A DNA stretch of 41,320 nucleotides from Candidatus Acidiflorens stordalenmirensis. Lineage in GTDB: Bacteria; Acidobacteriota; Terriglobia; Terriglobales; Acidobacteriaceae. Numbering within the stretch: position 1 is the stretch's first letter; each line of letters begins with the position of its first letter. Shown piece by piece: positions 1 through 29,545 of the stretch. The position numbers and the translations under genes are program-made. Under the pieces are notes generated by a model, which made no database searches, was not told the DNA's origin, and was given only the letters and a program-made list of their open reading frames with translations. Location of the stretch: NCBI GenBank assembly GCA_003139995.1, contig PLIC01000177.1, positions 1 through 41,320 on the forward strand, read 5' to 3'.

Positions 1-2
1 CA

Positions 3-1148
3 CTACAAAGTCGGAATTCCCAAAAAAGGAATCATGTCCCTGGGCCGCATCAGAGTTCGATCCAGGATGTAATCGATGGCGGGCTGCTTGCCGATGGTCT
101 TCGGAAGAAGATCTCTGTGAGTAACTAACTGGCTGGTGTACGTGTGCCTCACCATCCGATCAATCCGCTTATCGAGCAACTGTGTCAATTGCTCCCCGGT
201 CCAACTCAGATCCAGATAGAGCGATTCGTATTTTTCTTCCTGAAACCCAGGGCCTCTTGAAAGCCGGATTACCCGGTCAATAAGATCGTAACGTAGCGCG
301 ATAATGATTTTTGCATGCCGAACCTTGCAGAAATCTCGGACCGTTTCGATGAGCGCTCGGATCAACAGGTACCGCAAGTCTTCCTCAATCCAATTCTCGT
401 CCAGGCGATCAATCACGATGTAGTACCTTTTCTCGGGATCCTCCAATATTGAGTCGAGCAGCTCAAGCACATACGACAACTCCTGAATCTGCACTTGGTT
501 TACGACGTATTTCGCGCGCTCTACTACCCTGGCCTTTTCTTCTTGGGTGAGCGATTGACCTCCAGAAATATTGATCTTTGTCGCCGGTATCACGGCGGTG
601 ATTGAGGCCTCAAGTTCGCTCTCCAATTTGGTCTTCAACTCCTCGATGCGGTAGTCTGTCTGTTCCCAGAATTTACTGCCCCACCGCTCCAGGTATTCCA
701 CTGCCTTTTGGTGTTGCCGCTTCTTGTCGCTGAACACTCCGTGTAACCACTCGACGAGGCCTTCCTTGGCGTTCGGGCTATCGAGGTGAAAATGAGCCTT
801 AATAATCTCCACAGTAAACACATGCCGCCAAAGAAGTTTAAAGAAAATGTCTAGATTGACGCCCAGGCCATGCACAAATTGGAGGGTTGTCGAGTTCGAG
901 ATGTACGCAAGAGCAAGACTTTCCGGCCTGATATTTATCGCCGTTACCGATCGCTCCAACAATTGATTGAGCAGAGCCGTCTTGCCCGCCCCAGTCCGGC
1001 CCAGAACTATACGACGATGATCCGCACAGTCCAAAAGGAGATCCACCTGCCCGGTATCAACAAAGCATTCGTCGAGAAATAGGTGGTCTGACTCGGCGTC
1101 TGCAACGCCGACCGTATCCGTTGTTCGAAATCGGAATTTGTGTGCCAT
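3..1148 (-). CDS. P-loop ATPase, Sll1717-like, C-terminus abruptly cut
   Basis: Predicted cytoplasmic P-loop NTPase. A Walker A motif (GRTGAGKT) lies near residue 50, and a Walker B-like strand ending VIDRLDE follows at about residue 240, then an arginine-rich helical segment ending in RPRD. This architecture matches the Sll1717-type P-loop ATPases, which often sit in accessory or defence-like loci; the biochemical role is unknown. I chose the ATG at 1148 because GAGG sits 5 nt upstream; an in-frame ATG at 1202 would add 18 residues. The family normally continues well past the RPRD motif, but here translation stops about 11 residues later (stop at 3-5). A six-T run precedes the stop, and another reading frame stays open to the window edge, so a frameshift is plausible. 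No partner gene is visible on the right; the left side is outside the window. Confidence 0.7.
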   Translation of the reverse strand: MAHKFRFRTTDTVGVADAESDHLFLDECFVDTGQVDLLLDCADHRRIVLGRTGAGKTALLNQLLERSVTAINIRPESLALAYISNSTTLQFVHGLGVNLDIFFKLLWRHVFTVEIIKAHFHLDSPNAKEGLVEWLHGVFSDKKRQHQKAVEYLERWGSKFWEQTDYRIEELKTKLESELEASITAVIPATKINISGGQSLTQEEKARVVERAKYVVNQVQIQELSYVLELLDSILEDPEKRYYIVIDRLDENWIEEDLRYLLIRALIETVRDFCKVRHAKIIIALRYDLIDRVIRLSRGPGFQEEKYESLYLDLSWTGEQLTQLLDKRIDRMVRHTYTSQLVTHRDLLPKTIGKQPAIDYILDRTLMRPRDMIPFLGIPTL

Positions 1149-25886: not shown

Positions 25887-26010
25887 GAACATGAAATAAG
25901 GAAGGCAGCGCCGCCGCGAACCTCGTTTCCGCTCTTCCCACCGGGTGTACAATTGTCTCGTTAGGACCGCAGCTTCACGGGACTCTTCTTCCCGCGTTCG
26001 AGGCGCGAAA

Positions 26011-27057
26011 ATGAACGTTCACGTCAGTTACAAGGTCCACAAAACCCCCGACATCGAAAAAGAGATCGGCCATCAGATAGAGAAAATCCAGAAGCGCCTC
26101 CAGGTCTTCCGGCCCGAATTGGTCCATTTGAAGGCCATCATCGATCAGAATTCAGCGCGCGAGGGGACGCTTGTCTCCTTGAATCTGCGCTTGCCCTCGG
26201 GCCAACTGACCGCCCAGGCGAAAGCTTCCAGCCCGACCGCGGCTATTAAGGCTGCCTTCGACGAAATCATCCAGCAGATCGGCCGGCACAAGGAACTGCT
26301 CCGCTCCAGCCACAAATGGCGCCGCTGGCGCGGAGGGCCACAGGAATCTCCCGAACCCGGCGTTCCCTTCGAGCAGACGCTGGCAGCAGTTCTGCCGCCC
26401 ACCATTTCCGCCGACGACATTGGTTCCTATGTGAACGCCAATCTCGCCCGCCTCGAACGTTTCGTGGACCGCGAGCTTTACTTCCGTCGCGCCGGCGAGG
26501 AGATTCCCGAGGATGGTCTCTCCACCCCCGAAGTCGTGGACGAAGTCATCGCCCGAGCTCTCGGCGACCACGACCGTCCAGAAAAGCTGTCGCTTGAACC
26601 GTGGCTTTACCGCCTTGCCCTGCAAGCCATGAACGAGATGACTAAGCGCCTTCATGAACTGGAGTCTCCCGTCCATCTGCATCTCGAAGACAGCCGCCGC
26701 CGGCAAAATGTGCAAGCCTCAGACGAGGTCGGCCTGCAATTCCATCAGCCCGACGAGGGTTGGACCCGCGAAAGCGCGATTCCCGACCGCCGCGTGTCCA
26801 CTCCGGAACAGGCCGCCTACTCCGACGAAGTGATTGCCTTGGTGCAAGCCGCGCTCCGCGGCGCCGACCGCTCCGACCGCGAAGCTTTCCTCCTCTATGG
26901 TATCGAGGGCTTTTCCCTCGGCGAAATTGCCGCCATTACCGGCCGGCATCTGGAGGCCGTGCGCGAGTCCGTGCAGCGGGCGCGCGACTGCGTTCGCAGC
27001 GCGCCTTCCATCGCCAGCGAATTCCACAAGGAACTCTTAGTCAAAACTCGAATCTAA
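26011..27057 (+). CDS. HPF/S30AE ribosome-hibernation domain fused to sigma-70-like domains
   Basis: A 348-residue two-part protein. Residues 1-102 have the S30AE/HPF pattern: strand MNVHVSYK, helix IEKEIGHQIEKIQKRL, strands LVSLNLRLPS and QLTAQAKAS, then a long basic helix. Residues about 136-213 resemble sigma region 2, with the WLYRLALQAMNEM element. Residues about 264-330 resemble sigma region 4, with SDREAFLLYGIEGFSLGEIA and a helix-turn-helix ending QRARDCV. HPF proteins bind the 30S decoding centre and promote 100S dimers; the usual HPF C-terminal dimerisation domain is replaced here by the sigma-like part. The ATG at 26011 is family-like with GAGGCG upstream; an open extension to 25945 has no support. 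The next gene starts 39 nt later. A dual role in ribosome dormancy and transcription is inference. Confidence 0.8.
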   Translation: MNVHVSYKVHKTPDIEKEIGHQIEKIQKRLQVFRPELVHLKAIIDQNSAREGTLVSLNLRLPSGQLTAQAKASSPTAAIKAAFDEIIQQIGRHKELLRSSHKWRRWRGGPQESPEPGVPFEQTLAAVLPPTISADDIGSYVNANLARLERFVDRELYFRRAGEEIPEDGLSTPEVVDEVIARALGDHDRPEKLSLEPWLYRLALQAMNEMTKRLHELESPVHLHLEDSRRRQNVQASDEVGLQFHQPDEGWTRESAIPDRRVSTPEQAAYSDEVIALVQAALRGADRSDREAFLLYGIEGFSLGEIAAITGRHLEAVRESVQRARDCVRSAPSIASEFHKELLVKTRI

Positions 27058-27096
27058 ACATCTCAGTACCGCATCTCTGTATCAAGGAGAGTCGCG

Positions 27097-28272
27097 ATGA
27101 TGACCCGGGACGAAATCCGTGAGTTGGCGGCTTTTCAAGCGGACGAAACCAAAGGGGCGTGCGCCCTGAGTTTTTACTTTCAGCCCGATCCTCCCCAGGA
27201 TCGTTCCCATCGCCGCGAGGCAATCGTCGCCAAAGATGTCGTCAAGCAAGCCCTGAAAAGCGCTGCCGCCAGCGGCAAGAACGGACCCCTTCACGCCGAC
27301 CTCGATCGCGTCCTCGATCTGGCCACGAACTTGCGCGGCAGCGCCCGGGGAAGGGCAGTTTTCGCCTGCTCCGCTCAGAATTTCTGGAAAGAGTACGAAC
27401 TGCCTCCGCGTCTCGGAGGCACCCAGATTTATCTCCAGCCTCGCTTTCAATTGAAACCGCTGGCAGCGTTGCTGGGAGCCCAGCCCACGCTCTCGGTTGC
27501 CGTGGTCGACCGCCAGCGCGCGCGCTTCTTCGATCTTCGCCTCGATGACCTGCGCGAACGCGGAGCTATTGTCCACATGCTCTCGCGCAACGCCTCCAGC
27601 GACGGCTTCAATGGCTACGAAGCCGGCCATGCCGAACGCCGAGTGTCCGAGGAAGCGCTCCAGCACTTCAAGGCGGTTGCCGAACGGCTGCGGATCGACT
27701 TCGAGAAAGGCATCTGGGAGCGGCTCATCGTCGGGTGCCAGGATGCCAACTGGCGCGAATTCGAGGCCCACCTCCACCCATACGTCAGACAGCGCCTGAT
27801 TGGCCGATTCTCCGCCGATGTTGCCAGCGTCTCGAATGAAGAGATTCGCGATCACGCCGGCGCCGTCCTCAATCAATGGATCGCTAAACGCGCCTCTACG
27901 AAGGCCGGCGAAGCGGTGGATTTCGCCAAGTCCAATGGACGCGGTGTCACCGGCCTCCGCCGCGTCCTGCAAGCACTGGAAGCCGGGGAAGTGCAGAGCA
28001 TCTTCCTCACCGAAAACTATTCTGCTCGAGCGGTCGAGTGCCCTAACTGCGGCCACCTCGACGCCCATCTGGTCCCGTCGTGCGTCGCTTGCGGACGCCC
28101 CACTCGCGAACTCACCGACGTCAGTGACGCCATCATCCCCATCGCCATTCGCCGCGACATCGAATTGTTCTATCTCAAGGAGCACGCCGATCTGGATCGC
28201 GCCGGCAACATCGCGGCGCTATTGCGTTTCCGCTCCGATCAGACGACAGGACAGCTCGCGGCGGCCTCGTAG
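27097..28272 (+). CDS. Bacterial archaeo-eukaryotic release factor (eRF1/Pelota-like, baeRF) homolog
   Basis: 391-residue protein resembling the baeRF families, bacterial relatives of eRF1/Pelota. The LSVAVVDRQRARFFDLRLDDL strand-turn-strand segment (from about residue 130) is the family hallmark in the eRF1 domain-2 fold. It is followed by a charged loop (GYEAGHAERRVSEEAL) where GGQ would sit in true release factors; no GGQ is present. The C-terminal domain carries a zinc ribbon, C315xxC318 and C329xxC332. AAGGAG is about 9 nt before the ATG. Location directly after the HPF-sigma gene implies action on stalled or dormant ribosomes, without evidence yet for peptide release. The gene is probably in one operon with its upstream neighbour and perhaps the hydrolase downstream. 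Confidence 0.75.
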   Translation: MMTRDEIRELAAFQADETKGACALSFYFQPDPPQDRSHRREAIVAKDVVKQALKSAAASGKNGPLHADLDRVLDLATNLRGSARGRAVFACSAQNFWKEYELPPRLGGTQIYLQPRFQLKPLAALLGAQPTLSVAVVDRQRARFFDLRLDDLRERGAIVHMLSRNASSDGFNGYEAGHAERRVSEEALQHFKAVAERLRIDFEKGIWERLIVGCQDANWREFEAHLHPYVRQRLIGRFSADVASVSNEEIRDHAGAVLNQWIAKRASTKAGEAVDFAKSNGRGVTGLRRVLQALEAGEVQSIFLTENYSARAVECPNCGHLDAHLVPSCVACGRPTRELTDVSDAIIPIAIRRDIELFYLKEHADLDRAGNIAALLRFRSDQTTGQLAAAS

Positions 28273-28339: not shown

Positions 28340-28969
28340 ATGATCCACAAGATCCTTCCCGTGGGCCCGCTGCAATGCAACTGCTCGATCATCGGCGATG
28401 AGACCACGCGCGAGGCAATGGTCATCGATCCTGGCGATGACATTGAAGACATTCTCGCCATCGTCCGGCAACACAAGCTGGAAGTGAAGCAGATCGTCAT
28501 CACCCACGCCCACATCGATCACGTAGGCGGAGCCATGAAGCTGCGCGCGCTGACGGGCGCCCCAATCCTGCTCAATCAGAATGACTATGCGCTGCTGAAA
28601 ATGCTCGACGTGCAGGCTTCCTGGCTCGGCATGGCCGCGCCAGGCGAAGTTGCCATCGAAGCGAGTATCGCGGATGGAGAAGCGCTGCGGACGGGCAGCT
28701 TGACGGCGAACGTTCTCCACACTCCCGGCCACACCGAGGGCAGTGTCTGCCTCTATTTTCCCGCGGAGAAATTACTGATCGCCGGCGACACCCTGTTCGC
28801 CCGCAGCATCGGACGTACCGATCTTCCCGGAGGATCGTTCGAAAAAATCATGCGCTCCCTGCACGAGCGCGTCCTGACCCTGCCCGATGACACTCTCGTG
28901 ATTCCGGGCCACGGCCCCCGAACAACCATAGGAGAGGAAAGGGAAGAGAATCCGTTTTTGGTGGGGTGA
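28340..28969 (+). CDS. Metallo-beta-lactamase-fold hydrolase, glyoxalase II-like
   Basis: 209-residue cytoplasmic hydrolase with the binuclear metal motif THAHIDH (HxHxDH), a later His in HTPGHTEGS, an Asp in IAGDTLF and a His in IPGHGP, so all ligands are present. It belongs to the short glyoxalase II-like group (YcbL type), which hydrolyses thioesters such as S-lactoylglutathione; the natural substrate is uncertain. The start ATG at 28340 is chosen because the protein then begins directly with the first strand. The open frame continues far upstream but overlaps the baeRF gene and is not protein-like. It lies 67 nt after baeRF and may share its transcript. Confidence 0.85.
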   Translation: MIHKILPVGPLQCNCSIIGDETTREAMVIDPGDDIEDILAIVRQHKLEVKQIVITHAHIDHVGGAMKLRALTGAPILLNQNDYALLKMLDVQASWLGMAAPGEVAIEASIADGEALRTGSLTANVLHTPGHTEGSVCLYFPAEKLLIAGDTLFARSIGRTDLPGGSFEKIMRSLHERVLTLPDDTLVIPGHGPRTTIGEEREENPFLVG

Positions 28970-29460: not shown

Positions 29461-29545
29461 TGGTGCGGAAGGGGGGATTTGAACCCCCACGCCTTTCGGC
29501 GCCACCCCCTCAAGATGGTGTGTCTGCCAGTTCCACCACTTCCGC
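29461..29545 (-). tRNA. tRNA-Leu (GAG)
   Basis: Complete 85-nt class II tRNA on the minus strand. The acceptor stem is GCGGAAG/CTTCCGC, discriminator A, and the CCA end is encoded (complement of 29461-29463). The anticodon loop TTGAGGG contains GAG; the T-loop segment GGTTCAAATCC and a long variable arm (GGCGCCGAAAGGCG) confirm leucine. A decayed recombinase lies just upstream of its 5' end. Confidence 0.95.

Follow-up and report, generated by a model that had tools for sequence, protein, structure and literature searches.

What does a protein do when the domain of a hibernation promoting factor (HPF) stands at one end of it and a sigma-factor-like part at the other? The question is raised by a gene in a stretch of 41,320 nucleotides from the soil bacterium Candidatus Acidiflorens stordalenmirensis (assembly GCA_003139995.1, contig PLIC01000177.1, positions 1 to 41,320 of the forward strand), referred to here as the window. 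The gene is a single open frame on the plus strand, running from an ATG at 26011 to a stop codon at 27055-27057 and encoding 348 amino acids (aa). The first-pass annotation had read it as an HPF-sigma fusion that could release its sigma-like part when the HPF domain leaves the ribosome, and that forms a candidate dormancy module with the baeRF-like gene behind it. We give an even chance to a related reading, in which the protein is a hibernation factor of the HPF/S30AE kind whose tail, derived from an extracytoplasmic function (ECF) sigma factor, would no longer read DNA and would serve for docking. Full-length relatives of the fusion lie in stress islands of Pseudomonadota plasmids, which is a new observation.

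Profile searches placed both domains where the first-pass annotation had put them, with S30AE matched within residues 1-102 and sigma region 4 within residues 264-330. The Pfam model S30AE matched residues 9-96 with 30.9 bits (cut-off 23.7) and Sigma70_r4_2 matched residues 289-326 with 30.7 bits (cut-off 25.7), both passing. The S30AE match recurred in 31/31 members of the fusion family at E 0.01 and reached 48.9 bits in distant acidobacterial members; these figures, with the Pfam cut-off passed, rule out a chance match of the HPF part. At E 1, Pfam saw nothing of the S30AE_C dimerisation domain of long HPFs in the window protein, and the sigma-like half stands in its place, as had been claimed. 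When the family profile was compared with the PDB, solved HPFs matched inside residues 1-110 (best E 5.8e-8), ECF factors matched at 235-325 (E 9.4e-13), and a single sigma factor, 7qh5_A, spanned 147-327 (E 6e-12). PhyR-type sigma-like chains were also among the PDB matches.

The sigma-like half resembles ECF factors over its whole length, with region 2 as its weak part. NCBIfam TIGR02937 (sigma70-ECF) matched residues 174-329 at E 9.9e-9 with about 35-36.5 bits, below its cut-off of 42.9, and Pfam Sigma70_r2 was found in 1/31 relatives (E 0.007). Pfam PhyR_sigma-like gave 24.4 bits in the window protein, under the cut-off of 27; it was matched by 27/31 members at E 0.01, and one relative, L066, passes the cut-off with 33.5 bits. 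Controls were drawn from the same genome, where 9 of 14 above-cut-off sigma factors were kept as ECF factors, leaving out L087, L094 and L096 (group 1/3 type) and L098 and L099 (divergent). The sigma-like part is collinear with these factors from region 2 to region 4. Profile-profile comparison against the nine gave a probability of 99.2 (E 2.4e-19) for the whole sigma-like part and 79.9 (E 1.4e-5) when region 2 was compared by itself. As read from alignments, many relatives carry the motif [FY][HYW]QPD[ED] in the linker that separates the two regions; the rows of the sister family f2 have lost it.

The residues that distinguish a working sigma factor were compared between the nine controls and 25 fusions, the latter a chosen spread of the fetched sequences. 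The compared positions are those we take to be promoter/DNA-contact residues of regions 2.4 and 4.2, together with the region 2.2 glutamine, which presumably touches the clamp helices of beta-prime. At the recognition-helix arginine position, lysine or arginine was found in 0/25 fusions versus 5/9 controls; in the RAR stretch that follows the recognition helix, the first R position was basic in 7/25 versus 9/9, and the region 2.4 R position in 4/25 versus 9/9. The region 2.2 glutamine, present in 9/9 controls, is D or N in 25/25 fusions. Because these basic residues are lost and the glutamine is replaced, promoter binding is unlikely. On this sequence evidence the sigma half appears to be a PhyR-like module, retired as a sigma factor and put to use for docking.

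The proposed release of a working sigma factor under HPF control, with ribosome occupancy restraining and release permitting transcription, accordingly fared badly in the light of these counts, and the window protein itself falls below the sigma70-ECF cut-off. The alignment of the whole sigma-like part with ECF factors speaks for such a factor, as do two relatives that exceed the same cut-off (L070 with 48.2 and L125 with 45.7 bits) and the public annotation of the plasmid relatives described below as sigma-70 family factors; we consider it very unlikely all the same.

The joined frame is a real and widespread gene. Among 61 genomes searched, 52 had some match to the fusion, and in 40 the match spanned both domains, as judged by match span; G049, where the frames align end to end, is the 41st two-domain genome. 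This f2 genome was also seen to hold two fusion copies (L057, L058). The GTDB family of the window, f1, had a match in 67/120 genomes at E 1e-20, a few of these being fragments at contig ends. Across the phylum sample, two-domain matches were obtained in 20/297 genomes, which head the sorted match list, and 13 of them lie outside f1 in nine other families; one genome of this sample, G281, carries a cut-off fusion copy. Thirteen contig loci matched, from metagenome-assembled genomes titled Acidobacteriaceae, Acidobacteria, Terriglobia or Terriglobales. Nine distant members mostly had region 4 or PhyR-like matches besides S30AE; one, L078, had S30AE at only 18.7 bits, under the cut-off. A sequencing or assembly join of two separate genes, a concern raised at first pass, is ruled out by the two-domain match in many genomes, two of which (G213 of the phylum sample and G368 of f1) are single contigs. 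Phage records contained no match to the window protein or to the relative L125, and no description of an HPF-sigma fusion was found in titles or abstract openings of the open-licence literature.

The search beyond Acidobacteriota covered 72,556 plasmid records and 5,426 complete E. coli genomes. With an acidobacterial member as tblastn query, 18/72,556 plasmid records matched, 17 of them with at least 80% coverage; among the matches listed, the best 15 of the 18, all were from Pseudomonadota. An Agrobacterium member used as query matched 286/72,556 records, and in 270 of these the coverage was 80% or more; Klebsiella was the commonest source (124), ahead of Enterobacter (74), Acinetobacter (30) and Escherichia (17). 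Eleven plasmid regions were opened, five from alpha-, three from beta- and three from gammaproteobacteria, and in all 11 the relative lay amid stress genes. The neighbours included Hsp20, FtsH, a ClpK-type ATPase, HdeD, YfdX, thioredoxin, an antiporter, and GroEL or DnaK; for Methylorubrum extorquens AM1, whose megaplasmid relative lies at L126:8001-9173, the stress context comes from one annotated gene (yfdX1) and a reading of the frames.

A profile built from acidobacterial members only scored eight alpha/beta plasmid proteins at 202-210 bits, with reversed sequences at 5.4 or lower. Pfam S30AE passed its cut-off in 2/8 of these proteins (L125 with 24.1 and L135 with 24.7 bits). The 11 Pseudomonadota rows formed one group in the tree (98/98), beside the non-Terriglobia acidobacterial rows under a midpoint root. 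On E. coli and Klebsiella plasmids the relative is a hypothetical protein flanked by hdeD-GI and trx-GI. The published gene order of tLST1 has orf11 in this position (PMC8290217), and the plasmid gene was identified as orf11 on that ground. It was found in 152/5,426 complete E. coli genomes; the window itself is without the hdeD-GI/trx-GI island. Three orf11 proteins matched the acidobacteria-only profile at 110-114 bits over profile positions 1-328 (reversed sequences at 5.4 or lower), and they are 25-26% identical to the Agrobacterium member. Single-part profiles, which include the alpha/beta plasmid proteins, gave 32-38 bits for the HPF part of orf11 (reversed 6.5-8.4), 36-39 for region 2 and 28-32 for region 4. 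An oxidative stress module that contains orf11 was reported to be needed for chlorine resistance and not for heat or pressure resistance (PMC8290217), and deletion of orf11 left membrane lipid oxidation unchanged (PMC8407380).

How far the HPF half has kept its basic residues was judged against 18 other S30AE proteins of relatives, including three short divergent ones (L122-L124). Columns that are basic in at least 60% of the 18 were counted as canonical basic columns, which gave 14. Four of these, K25, K28, R92 and K94, have remained basic in 88-96% of the fusions. The window genome also encodes a canonical long HPF with its tail (G000:C252, 227 aa), whose gene sits downstream of an apparent rpoN end (rpoN as read from the translation), and most f1 genomes hold a separate long HPF beside the fusion. 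Short extra S30AE-domain proteins of ~116-141 aa (L122, L123, L124) were observed beside the long HPF and the fusion in several genomes of the genus. In f2, S30AE was matched in 13/14 genomes and each match was the fusion, the sole S30AE protein found there; one genome, G046 (82% complete), was without any S30AE match. Since the fusion is the sole S30AE protein in these 13 genomes, it probably performs the HPF job in them. Judged from its residues, the HPF half could plausibly bind ribosomes, though this cannot be taken for granted.

The baeRF-like gene was confirmed 39 nt past the stop codon of the fusion, and its product was matched by Pfam baeRF_family10 with 70 bits (cut-off 27.1). Its translation is without GGQ or NIKS letters when read by eye, as the rule for Balon-type factors demands. 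Against the NCBIfam equivalogs of Balon-type ribosome hibernation factors the best score was 40.1 bits, missing the cut-off of 480, and a PDB search with the baeRF protein alone gave 0 matches. A baeRF10 gene was counted as adjacent when it shared contig and strand with the fusion and lay less than 1200 bases downstream; the 67 f1 matches include a few fragments at contig ends. By this definition baeRF10 directly follows in 52/67 f1 genomes with a fusion match; of the remaining 15, 13 have no baeRF10 match and two carry it elsewhere. Only 9/53 f1 genomes without a fusion match have baeRF10. It was found in 0/14 genomes of f2, and four members from other families have an aminotransferase gene downstream of the fusion. 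The pairing of fusion and baeRF is usual in f1 only among the lineages scanned: baeRF as a general fixed partner is ruled out by the 15 f1 genomes, by f2 and by the aminotransferase neighbours, and the adjacency is lineage-specific. HPF-baeRF operons as such have been published by Burroughs and Aravind (PMC6514570) and in the Balon paper (PMC10901736), where Balon, a baeRF relative, is described as a hibernation factor binding together with RaiA. A broader tie to dormancy or stress holds up by context, through the baeRF adjacency, the f2 genomes and the setting of all 11 plasmid regions.

The reading with an even chance runs as follows. In stressed cells the HPF domain would occupy the mRNA/tRNA channel of the small ribosomal subunit, as its family suggests. 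The retired sigma module would imitate a sigma factor towards a protein partner, acting as a docking piece; the likeliest partner would be an anti-sigma factor or core RNA polymerase. Docking would thereby connect the transcription machinery with the parked ribosome. In the window's lineage the fusion would usually be made together with its baeRF neighbour, which may act as a Balon-like A-site factor. The same family sits in mobile stress-tolerance islands of Pseudomonadota, with tLST orf11 included by position. What argues for a protein-facing module, as in PhyR, is that the sigma fold has been kept across two phyla without its DNA-contact letters.

Several results weigh against this reading. 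The remaining 10/14 canonical basic HPF columns are less than 50% lysine or arginine in the fusions, so that ribosome binding could be altered. The two relatives above the sigma70-ECF cut-off fit less well with a retired sigma factor. Loss of the region 2.2 glutamine in all fusions compared speaks against ordinary core binding too, and as it makes the ordinary core contact less likely, our confidence was held at an even level. Pfam S30AE matched 0/3 orf11 proteins at E 1, with region 4 weak, and the orf11 N-terminus failed in direct comparison with canonical HPFs (probability 0.6); the link of orf11 to HPF comes from the family profile. In the structure prediction suggested at first pass, the two models of the fusion were poor (predicted local distance difference test, pLDDT, 44.2 and 51.0), owing to an input of window proteins and related loci 75-93% alike only, and the second gave 0 Foldseek matches at E 0.001 or better. 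The weaker Foldseek matches included region 4 structures, with template modelling (TM) scores by target of 0.72-0.81. Finally, no regulator-type or other partner gene stood beside the fusion in the lineages scanned.

Among the alternatives, the one that survives best holds that the protein works on ribosomes only, its sigma-derived half standing in as a structural tail for the dimerisation domain of long HPFs. Such a tail would pair ribosomes or cap a ribosomal site and would take no part in transcription. We regard this alternative as rather unlikely. It would account for the loss of the DNA-contact residues and of the region 2.2 glutamine and for the missing regulator-type partner, and in f2, where the fusion is the sole S30AE protein, the tail may act as an HPF tail. 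It sits poorly with the separate, tailed long HPF kept by most f1 genomes, including that of the window, and with a sigma fold retained in two phyla though any helical tail would serve. A bolder version of the docking reading, distinctly unlikely in our judgement, would make the fusion a two-machine factor: HPF would park the ribosome while the sigma module fills the sigma seat of the polymerase and leaves the DNA closed. A single protein would in this way stop translation and transcription and hold both machines side by side for restart, and mobile stress islands would have spread it as orf11. Degeneration of both halves, with ribosome binding given up and the protein left as a chaperone-like factor or stress adaptor, is improbable. 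The weakened basic columns, the slight HPF signal of orf11 itself and the chaperones and proteases of the islands suit it; the four basic positions kept and the S30AE match in 31/31 members, with up to 48.9 bits in distant acidobacterial ones, do not.

If the docking reading is right, ribosome parking and RNA polymerase control, which are usually studied apart, would be joined in one protein of two phyla. The family link gives a first clue to an unexplained protein of mobile stress-tolerance islands, and assignment to the fusion family corrects the public annotation of relatives as sigma-70 factors or FliA.

Table 1. Features of the fusion gene, its upstream region and the baeRF gene, in window coordinates.
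Feature	Position	Strand	Remarks
GGTGTACAAT, promoter-like (predicted)	25944..25953	+	Invariant in 17/17 aligned upstream regions of the genus
HPF / putatively retired-sigma fusion gene, stop codon included	26011..27057	+	348 aa
S30AE/HPF domain, residues ~1-102	26011..26316	+	Pfam, PDB matches, basic columns
Sigma region 2-like part, residues ~136-213, with D in place of the region 2.2 glutamine	26416..26649	+	
FHQPDE motif, residues 244-249, in the linker that joins the region 2-like to the region 4-like part	26740..26757	+	
Sigma region 4-like part, residues ~264-330, whose recognition helix lacks the DNA-contact arginine of ECF factors	26800..27000	+	
baeRF family 10 gene, 391 aa	27097..28272	+	Pfam baeRF_family10 70 bits, cut-off 27.1

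The region before the gene is conserved as well. Between GGTGTACAAT and the ATG lies a conserved leader of ~57 nt (window 25944-26010 with the promoter-like element). The open-reading-frame listing allows an alternative GTG start at 25945; the ATG is favoured because the MNVH start and the leader directly upstream of it are conserved. When single leader sequences were folded, the GAGG stretch upstream of the ATG was base-paired, at z of only -0.8 to -1.3. A consensus structure from the 28-sequence alignment contained no predicted pair, and the pair table showed few changes on both sides.

Some neighbouring genes were recorded alongside. A gene of the metallo-beta-lactamase fold follows near window position 28340, and in G016 (L063:5094-5735) such a gene comes directly after the fusion, with baeRF missing between them. 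A tRNA-Leu (gag) lies at window 29461-29545 on the minus strand. In f2 a LysM/SLT lytic transglycosylase-like gene comes after the fusion in all four loci scanned (L062:4031-5860, L048, L053 and L054). A class relative, G059, has a stand-alone HPF of 122 aa with a baeRF gene beginning 38 nt behind it (L060:3001-4567); this short HPF is most similar to the HPF part of the fusion (40% over 99 residues), and the pair would be either ancestral or the product of losing the sigma part.

The fusion shares features with several known systems and differs from each. Like HPF and RaiA, it has an N-terminal S30AE domain above the Pfam cut-off with four central basic positions kept; unlike them, it has a sigma-derived tail in place of the long-HPF dimerisation domain and weakened basic columns. 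Its order of region 2 and region 4 is that of ECF sigma factors (TIGR02937), from which it is set apart by the lost DNA-contact residues and region 2.2 glutamine and by the extra QPDE linker. PhyR is a response regulator with a sigma-like domain that acts as an anti-anti-sigma factor through a NepR-type partner. The fusion resembles it in having a sigma-like module without DNA-binding letters, matched by the PhyR model in most members, and differs in giving no Pfam receiver domain match at E 1 and in the HPF domain attached. The archaeal protein HibA also joins an HPF domain to a second, non-ribosomal domain (PMC13324472); there the partner is a CBS module, whereas the window protein is bacterial and carries a sigma-like module. 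The HibA study ran a domain search on bacterial HPFs too, and the available part of its text makes no mention of a sigma fusion. As in the operons with Balon or baeRF beside RaiA, a baeRF gene lies directly downstream of an HPF-domain gene (PMC10901736, PMC6514570), and a figure legend of the Balon paper lists alternative sigma-70 factors among the operon neighbours (PMC10901736); here HPF and sigma are in one protein, and baeRF is not adjacent in other lineages. To orf11 of the transmissible locus of stress tolerance (tLST), or locus of heat resistance (PMC8290217, PMC8407380), the likeness is the full-length profile match, and the differences are the missing Pfam S30AE match and the low identity to the Agrobacterium member. 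E. coli, for its part, silences polymerase and ribosome coordinately with separate proteins, Rsd and RMF/HPF (PMC6904343).

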